From assembly GCA_021772635.1 (NCBI GenBank), contig JAJFLP010000016.1, positions 1-64,000 of the forward strand: DNA of 64,000 nt, given 5' to 3'. The notes below the pieces were generated by a model. That model made no database searches, had not been told where the DNA came from, and worked only from the letters and a program-made list of their open reading frames with translations. A program made the translations under genes and the position numbers. Numbering within the stretch: the first letter of the stretch is position 1; every line of letters begins with the position of its first letter. This DNA is from Verrucomicrobiota bacterium (GTDB lineage: Bacteria > Verrucomicrobiota > Lentisphaeria > JABSQK01 > JAJFLO01). This document shows, piece by piece, positions 1-1,799 of this stretch.

Positions 1-141
1 AGCGTCAGTGCACTGACCCAAGCACGAGACAAGGTCTCATCTGATTCATCCGGTAGATTACGAAAGAATCTCAAACAGATCGAGAAGATGTTAGCACAAC
101 ATTCAAAAAAACTTCATAATAAAGATGTGACCCTAATTTAA
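1..141 (+). CDS. C-terminal fragment of unidentified protein
   Basis: The frame is open from the window edge for 46 codons and ends in TAA at 139-141. The residues are polar and lysine-rich, with a short helical look (RKNLKQIEKMLAQ) and no recognisable domain. The next gene starts 12 bases later in the same frame. The codons between the stop and that start would read SKEA, which would suit the helix of a Sel1 repeat. The fragment may therefore be the end of a separate gene or the front of a Sel1 gene broken by a stop. Confidence 0.4.
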   Translation, partial: SVSALTQARDKVSSDSSGRLRKNLKQIEKMLAQHSKKLHNKDVTLI

Positions 142-153
142 TCTAAGGAAGCG

Positions 154-1503
154 TTGAATGGCGATTCTCTCGCACTTCAAGGAATTGCATTCTGCTATAT
201 ATATGGTCGTGCTGGTTTACCTATTGATAAGACTACAGCGAGCTGGTGGTTATTCGAATCGGCAAAAAGAGCGGATTCTGAGCGGCAATATGAAATTGGA
301 CAGAAATTCGAAAAGGGAGAAGTTTTTGATAAGGATGAAACTCTGGCTTCAAAATGCTATTTAATGGCGGCTCAGCAAGGTGGTTTCCTAGGAGCATTTA
401 GCTCGGCAGAGAGTCTTAGGCATGGAATGGGTGTTGAAGCCGACTTAGACAAGTCTAAACATTGGTATTTACAGACACTTGAACTTGCGAAATTTAAAGA
501 GGAAACAGAATTGAGAAATTATATTATCGAGACCTCTTATTTTTCTCTAGGATTAACCTGTGAGGGTAAGGAGGCGATTCATTGGTACAAAAAAGCGGCT
601 GAAAGAGGCGTGCCTGAGGCGATGTACAATATCGGAGTTTTGTTATCACAAGGAGAAGGTGTAATTGCGAGTAAATCTGCCGCTATAGATTGGTTCTATA
701 AGGCCGGAATAGCTTACTTAGCGGTAGGTAACAAAGATAGTGCGCTTCGAGCAGTAGACCGTATAAATTCAGAAATTAGGAATCATTTTTTAGGCGAGAA
801 ACTTCTTGCAGAAATATATGGCAATGAAGTTCAGATCAAGGATAACAGTAAAAACGAACAAGACAACGAGTCGACTGAGCATTGGGGTACTGGATGGGCA
901 GTTGACACTGGTTACGTAGTCACCTGTTATCATGTAGTTGATAATACAGATAATATTACGCTACATTTTCAAGACGGTTCACGGGTGTCGGCCGAAGTGG
1001 CGGTAGCCGACAAGGCTAATGATATTGTATTATTAAGACCATCTCGCCGAGGAATGTTGCCTCCGGGATTACAGCTCGGCTTAAATAGGATTAAACCCGG
1101 GGCGGAAATATTTACAATAGGATTTCCACATCCGGAGACGATGGGATTTACCCCGAAGGTCACGGAGGGAACAATTACCTCATTGACCGGCTATCAAGAT
1201 GATCCTCGTCTGTTTCAGATTTCCGTTCCGGTACAAGCAGGTAATAGCGGCGGCCCGCTAATTAATTTAAATGGAGAGGTTATTGGATTAGTAACAGCCA
1301 AGCTTAGTGCTTTGGCTATGTTCGCGCGAACGGGTGATCTTCCTCAAAATGTGAATTACGCAATAAAATCCCAATATCTGGATATACTACTTAAGAGCAC
1401 TGAGCCAGTCGAGGATATTTCACAAGTAAAGATTTCCTCGAATACTTTGGAGGCCCTAGTAGAGCTATTGCAAGGATCTATAGTGCTCATTTCAGCTGAA
1501 TGA
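154..1503 (+). CDS. Sel1-repeat protein with C-terminal trypsin-like (S1C) serine protease domain
   Basis: The N-terminal half (about residues 1-190) carries Sel1/TPR-like helical repeats, with A-x3-G and W/Y-containing helices such as ASWWLFESAKRA and AIHWYKKAAERG. The C-terminal half (about 240-415) is a trypsin-fold domain with a complete triad: His260 in CYHVV, Asp290 in ANDIVLL and Ser365 in AGNSGGPL. No PDZ domain follows. There is no signal peptide at the chosen TTG start, which has AAGGA five bases upstream. Sel1 repeats usually bind protein partners, so this is probably a scaffold-coupled regulatory protease (inference). The start is uncertain because the same frame continues upstream to a TAA only 12 bases away. 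Confidence 0.8.
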   Translation: MNGDSLALQGIAFCYIYGRAGLPIDKTTASWWLFESAKRADSERQYEIGQKFEKGEVFDKDETLASKCYLMAAQQGGFLGAFSSAESLRHGMGVEADLDKSKHWYLQTLELAKFKEETELRNYIIETSYFSLGLTCEGKEAIHWYKKAAERGVPEAMYNIGVLLSQGEGVIASKSAAIDWFYKAGIAYLAVGNKDSALRAVDRINSEIRNHFLGEKLLAEIYGNEVQIKDNSKNEQDNESTEHWGTGWAVDTGYVVTCYHVVDNTDNITLHFQDGSRVSAEVAVADKANDIVLLRPSRRGMLPPGLQLGLNRIKPGAEIFTIGFPHPETMGFTPKVTEGTITSLTGYQDDPRLFQISVPVQAGNSGGPLINLNGEVIGLVTAKLSALAMFARTGDLPQNVNYAIKSQYLDILLKSTEPVEDISQVKISSNTLEALVELLQGSIVLISAE

Positions 1504-1606: not shown

Positions 1607-1788
1607 GGGGTAGTCAGCGGATGTCAATCGATGCCATTTCTTAGCTAAATGACAAATTTAAATTAGTATCTTTACTTGGTAGCACCACACTGTCACTGTG
1701 GAGGTTGCGGGGTTGAGCACCGAGATTCCAGCGAGGTACGGCCCCGCATCATGCGGGGAGCTAAGCGACAGTCCCGTCAACCCCGCCA
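1607..1788 (+). tRNA. tRNA-Asp(GTC)-like sequence, interrupted or decayed
   Basis: A perfect anticodon arm is present: stem CCACA (1685-1689) with TGTGG (1697-1701), loop CTGTCAC, anticodon GTC at 1692-1694. It is preceded by a D-arm-like TTGGTAGCA and followed by AGGTT and T-stem strand GCGGG (1707-1711). The other T-stem strand CCCGT (1773-1777), acceptor strand CAACCCC, discriminator G and encoded CCA (1786-1788) lie 61 bases further on. The T loop thus holds about 61 bases instead of 7, including a hairpin at 1742-1758. The best 5' acceptor partner is GGGGTAG at 1607-1613, with one mismatch, which leaves about 50 extra bases in the D region. It is either a pseudogene or a tRNA with unusual insertions. 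It may not be functional. Confidence 0.4.
1707..1786. repeat. 10-bp inverted repeat enclosing the tRNA T-loop insertion
   Basis: GCGGGGTTGA at 1707-1716 is perfectly complementary to TCAACCCCGC at 1777-1786. The pairing competes with the tRNA acceptor and T stems, because the right arm is the acceptor strand of the tRNA-like sequence. A second hairpin (CCCCGCA/TGCGGGG, 1742-1758) lies inside. Confidence 0.7.
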
Positions 1789-1799
1789 TTCTTCGTTCA

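Follow-up and report, generated by a model that had tools for sequence, protein, structure and literature searches.

A partial tRNA-Asp copy as the likely right-hand edge of a small inserted segment in a Verrucomicrobiota bacterium

A split tRNA-Asp sequence near the contig end

The DNA analysed here, the window, comprises the first 64,000 nucleotides of contig JAJFLP010000016.1 from a Verrucomicrobiota bacterium (assembly GCA_021772635.1). At 1607–1788 it contains a sequence that resembles an aspartate transfer RNA (tRNA-Asp), which an initial annotation had described as a tRNA-Asp(GTC)-like sequence with long insertions in the D and T regions, either a pseudogene or an interrupted tRNA. The sequence is likely a non-functional partial 3′ copy of tRNA-Asp. 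Some 3.6 kilobases (kb) of DNA would have been inserted at the tRNA-Asp gene, with this copy bounding the segment on the right; the intact gene itself is on another contig of the assembly, C115. The components of the locus are as follows.

1607..1619, plus strand: doubtful match to the 5′ acceptor and D-stem strands, with one substitution and one extra base; not established by shuffles
1676..1711, plus strand: tRNA-Asp positions 16–54, aligned to the intact gene; end of the D loop, anticodon arm with GTC, variable loop, and 5′ T-stem strand, with a deletion of three nucleotides in the D region
1712..1769, plus strand: T-loop stretch of 58 nucleotides replacing the four-nucleotide TTCG and including a seven-base-pair hairpin at 1742–1758; its second match in the genome is weak (E 0.42)
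1770..1790, plus strand: 3′ part of the T loop, 3′ T-stem strand, 3′ acceptor strand, discriminator, CCA, and TT; 21 nucleotides, AGTCCCGTCAACCCCGCCATT, identical to the intact tRNA-Asp on C115

Positions 16–77 of tRNA-Asp are split in the window between 1676–1711 and 1770–1788, and the copy is firm from tRNA position 16 to the CCA and the two bases that follow it. Its core was recovered with an E value of 5.3e-10 in a BLAST search with the intact tRNA-Asp as the query. A gap-tolerant alignment of the window copy to the intact gene contains 73 matches out of 77 and one mismatch, with some of the matches placed by chance. The likeness to tRNA-Asp(GTC) holds for the 3′ part, where the anticodon arm, both T-stem strands, the 3′ acceptor strand, and the CCA are all present; however, it does not extend to the 5′ end, since between 29 and 184 of 1000 dinucleotide shuffles equalled the match at 1607–1619, the number varying with the upstream length searched. 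Because the 5′ end is near chance, the claimed D-region insertion of about 50 bases is near chance as well. To judge from the sequence, the bases before 1676 may be plain non-tRNA DNA, in which case there is no true insertion in the D region. The approximately 54 extra T-loop bases were counted correctly (58 nucleotides against four in the intact gene), and the hairpin and a perfect ten-base-pair inverted repeat (1707–1716/1777–1786) are present as annotated.

The initial annotation had also compared the extra bases, as hairpin insertions, to the repeats around them. This is not supported: no convincing duplicate of either stretch was found in the genome. Only a 25-nucleotide match at 88% (E 0.42) was found for the T-loop stretch, and only an 18-nucleotide match (E 0.81) for the upstream stretch. 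An origin of the inserts from nearby DNA was also rejected: the best exact matches to C115 and the window are 11 to 12 nucleotides long, apart from the palindrome of the T-loop insert itself.

The sequence after the 5′ T-stem strand can alternatively be aligned to tRNA-Asp without a gap, which yields matches at 13 of 25 bases (shuffle P 0.0018). Two nested footprints would then be present, a degenerate tRNA copy running past 1711 and a separate att-like repeat at 1770–1790. However, the first six bases of the ungapped continuation are explained equally well by the gapped reading, the remainder is weak (9 of 19 matches, P 0.029), and it is precisely the T loop that is split. We regard nested footprints as improbable.

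Intact tRNA-Asp gene on the adjoining contig

The intact tRNA-Asp(GTC) gene occupies C115:2077–2153 and is the only intact copy found in the genome. The genome has 43 matches to RF00005, 30 of which were taken as loci and read by ARAGORN, with the other 13 left out; one of the 30 is a tRNA-Asp, that on C115. A DNA search of the genome with the intact tRNA-Asp hit a tRNA-Ala in addition to C115 itself and the window copy, three places in all. The pseudogene alternative of the initial annotation is supported because an intact tRNA-Asp(GTC) exists elsewhere, which is one of the two observations that it had named as pointing to a pseudogene.

The right end of C115 and the start of the window share 141 identical bases, which puts the intact tRNA-Asp approximately 3.5 kb upstream of the partial copy, in the same orientation. 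On the joined contigs, 3481 bases separate the end of the intact tRNA from 1607, and 3550 bases separate it from 1676. Both copies, C115:2077–2153 and window 1676–1790, are on the plus strand and thus in direct orientation. The exact 141-base-pair stretch occurs nowhere else in the searched genome; a 94% match at the start of contig C23 may come from another copy of this transposase gene end. The initial annotation was not in a position to see the main point of the locus, which is the intact copy about 3.5 kb upstream on the adjoining contig and the bracketing of a putatively inserted segment by the two copies.

A chimeric join within the tRNA-like sequence might be suspected, since the genome is a draft of 130 contigs and the transposase gene at the end of this contig has a near copy elsewhere. 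However, the locus lies 1.6 kb inside a contig of 121,920 base pairs, and no other position in the assembly convincingly matches the inserted bases, which makes an artefact of this kind highly improbable.

The main rival explanation is that the whole tRNA-Asp gene was duplicated together with short flanks, without site-specific recombination, and that the downstream copy decayed through insertions in the D and T loops, with other genes arriving later between the two copies. The possible 5′ end at 1607–1619 is in the right order for such a history, and the eight-nucleotide sequence TTCACTAA follows directly after both copies (equalled in 19 of 2000 shuffles for 20-nucleotide flanks and 117 of 2000 for 40-nucleotide flanks). 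Duplication, however, requires a homologous 5′ end and homologous flanks, which the sequence tests support weakly: the match at the 5′ end is close to what chance would give, and the similarity of the 5′ flanks is not significant (equalled in 217 of 2000 shuffles at 20 nucleotides and 1295 of 2000 at 40 nucleotides). Whole-gene duplication is therefore considered unlikely.

tRNA recognition and folding

ARAGORN identified no tRNA in the window or at the locus, with four option sets included. Rfam provided no match at gathering thresholds across the window and none up to E 10 within 1400–2000, introns included. When both insertions were removed in silico, ARAGORN with default settings called no tRNA in either of two joins. 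A group I or group II intron, or another known RNA family, was rejected because of the missing Rfam match. An intron-containing tRNA is likewise not indicated: the interruption lies in the T loop and matches neither an intron in Rfam nor a known intron position.

The 182-nucleotide RNA spanning 1607–1788 is not predicted to fold into a cloverleaf. Its T-stem pairs have probabilities of at most 0.002, whereas the anticodon stem reaches approximately 0.7 to 0.8 and the first five acceptor pairs exceed 0.93; the sixth acceptor pair is absent in the window copy. The ten-base-pair inverted repeat pairs when 1676–1789 is folded alone, but with a probability of about 0.016 in the full 1607–1788 RNA. 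The stability of a 196-nucleotide fold is at the level of shuffled sequences (z −0.32; 74 of 200 shuffles fold as well), and a scan of 1400–1900 for promoters and terminators found no excess over shuffles, with one promoter-like site compared with a mean of 0.8.

The locus is probably not a working tRNA but a non-functional remnant. A functional interrupted tRNA, with the extra stretches spliced or trimmed out, would account for the nearly unchanged tRNA bases and for the predicted formation of the anticodon stem and the first five acceptor pairs. However, an intact tRNA-Asp exists, the T stem is predicted not to form, and no Rfam model matches the locus. Moreover, the bacterial tRNA introns described in passages of PMC4390854 are self-splicing and located in the anticodon-loop region, whereas the interruption here is in the T loop. 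A functional tRNA is accordingly very doubtful, and of the two alternatives in the initial annotation, the pseudogene is favoured over the interrupted working tRNA. It is also conceivable, but hardly probable, that selection maintains a tRNA-Asp-like RNA with a hairpin-bearing 58-nucleotide replacement in its T loop, which might, for instance, be processed into a tRNA or act as a decoy for the PIN-domain protein of the segment. If so, the near-unchanged tRNA bases would reflect constraint rather than youth.

Genes at the tRNA-Asp site

The order on the joined contigs is an SH3-domain gene, the intact tRNA-Asp, a PIN/Phd pair, a Y1_Tnp transposase gene, a Sel1-trypsin gene, the partial tRNA-Asp, and a CoaD-CoaE fusion gene. 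Three of these features lie wholly or partly in the window.

1..141, plus strand: overlap with the right end of C115 and 3′ end of the Y1_Tnp (IS200-like) transposase gene, which is at C115:3099–4169
154..1503, plus strand: gene for a protein with Sel1 repeats and a trypsin-like peptidase, within the putative inserted segment
1800..2969, minus strand: CoaD-CoaE fusion gene, putative ancestral right-hand neighbour of tRNA-Asp and its neighbour in genomes G001 and G002

The family comparison covered two other genomes, G001 and G002. In both, a single intact tRNA-Asp has the SH3 gene and the CoaD-CoaE gene adjacent to it, so that the site is uninterrupted in two of two. Matches to these two genomes are at 35% and 37% for the SH3 proteins, and at 65% and 66% for the CoaD-CoaE proteins. 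One tRNA-Asp is present in each of G001 to G004.

The four scanned genes between the copies belong to the families PIN, Phd, Y1_Tnp, and Sel1/trypsin only. The PIN/Phd pair resembles a toxin-antitoxin pair. The Sel1-trypsin protein has no close full-length relative in 18 related genomes, where partial matches reach 65 bits, which fits an accessory gene. PADLOC matched the Sel1-trypsin protein in its protease part only, which resembles the protease part of the RT-Protease_XI models (E 1.6e-20), and returned no match for the other three proteins submitted.

Several further features were noted. The genome contains 11 Y1_Tnp matches, the transposase between the tRNA copies among them. The gene at 1800–2969 fuses CoaD-like and CoaE domains. 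Its best match extends over most of both domains in five of five other genomes from the order; matches from more distant members of the class are confined to one domain each. A match across both domains, with 38% identity, is found in a record titled Candidatus Diapherotrites archaeon. A dispersed repeat with the core AAGCAGTACAATTTT occurs at 17 places in the window, from 4297 to 57697, with up to two mismatches (0.2 expected). Bases that by eye resemble relatives of this repeat come after the intact tRNA-Asp on C115.

Probable insertion at the tRNA-Asp gene

The two tRNA-Asp copies follow one another in the same orientation on the join, with four genes between them, at a site that is uninterrupted in both other family genomes compared. 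By analogy with known integrated elements, such an arrangement, with like-oriented complete and partial copies on either side of genes that relatives lack at this position, usually records the insertion of an element at a tRNA gene. A segment of approximately 3.6 kb would have been inserted at the tRNA-Asp gene, by a mechanism that is only inferred because no integrase gene was recognised. The intact gene would form the left-hand edge, with the added genes placed 3′ of it, and would supply the tRNA-Asp of the cell; the partial repeat in the same orientation at the far end would later have been interrupted in its T loop.

Several observations weigh against this insertion. No tyrosine or serine integrase was recognised among the four scanned genes between the copies, where the Y1 transposase is the sole recombinase-like gene. 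The segment, at about 3.6 kb, is also short, and the link between C115 and the window depends on a single overlap plus synteny. In G003, from the same order, the SH3 gene is beside tRNA-Asp but the CoaD-CoaE gene is on another contig, which provides no support for the right-hand neighbour; in G004, tRNA-Asp and CoaD-CoaE are on separate contigs; and in G005, a tRNA-Asp match is absent at E 0.001. ARAGORN at a relaxed 80% threshold calls a tRNA-Asp on one of the two in silico joins. Finally, the retained tRNA bases are hardly changed, which is odd for an old pseudogene. A working tRNA could show the same conservation, but it is disfavoured by the intact copy, the absent T stem, and the fact that no model matches.

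Once the adjoining contig had been found, what appeared to be an interrupted bacterial tRNA was explained by its neighbourhood, and a small accessory segment could be delimited at the tRNA-Asp of this bacterium. The locus does not alter the knowledge of tRNA processing; it would be a tRNA remnant, a scar of an ordinary kind.

Comparison with known systems

The intron-containing tRNA genes of archaea and bacteria treated in passages of PMC4390854 likewise have a tRNA sequence interrupted by extra bases. By contrast, the interruption here is in the T loop, has no Rfam match, is accompanied by an intact second copy, and shows no evidence of splicing. Among 12 of the 34 passages on unusual tRNAs in PMC7609411, none describes a comparable case.

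PMC9897764 describes as widespread in Archaea and Bacteria a pattern in which an integrated element has a complete tRNA copy at one end and a partial copy at the other; PYG1, at tRNA-Gln of Pyrococcus yayanosii, is an example of an element ended by a partial tRNA copy. The segment described here differs from such elements in being approximately 3.6 kb long without a recognised integrase and in having a partial copy that is itself interrupted in the T loop. It resembles them in its complete and partial tRNA-Asp copies, both in direct orientation.
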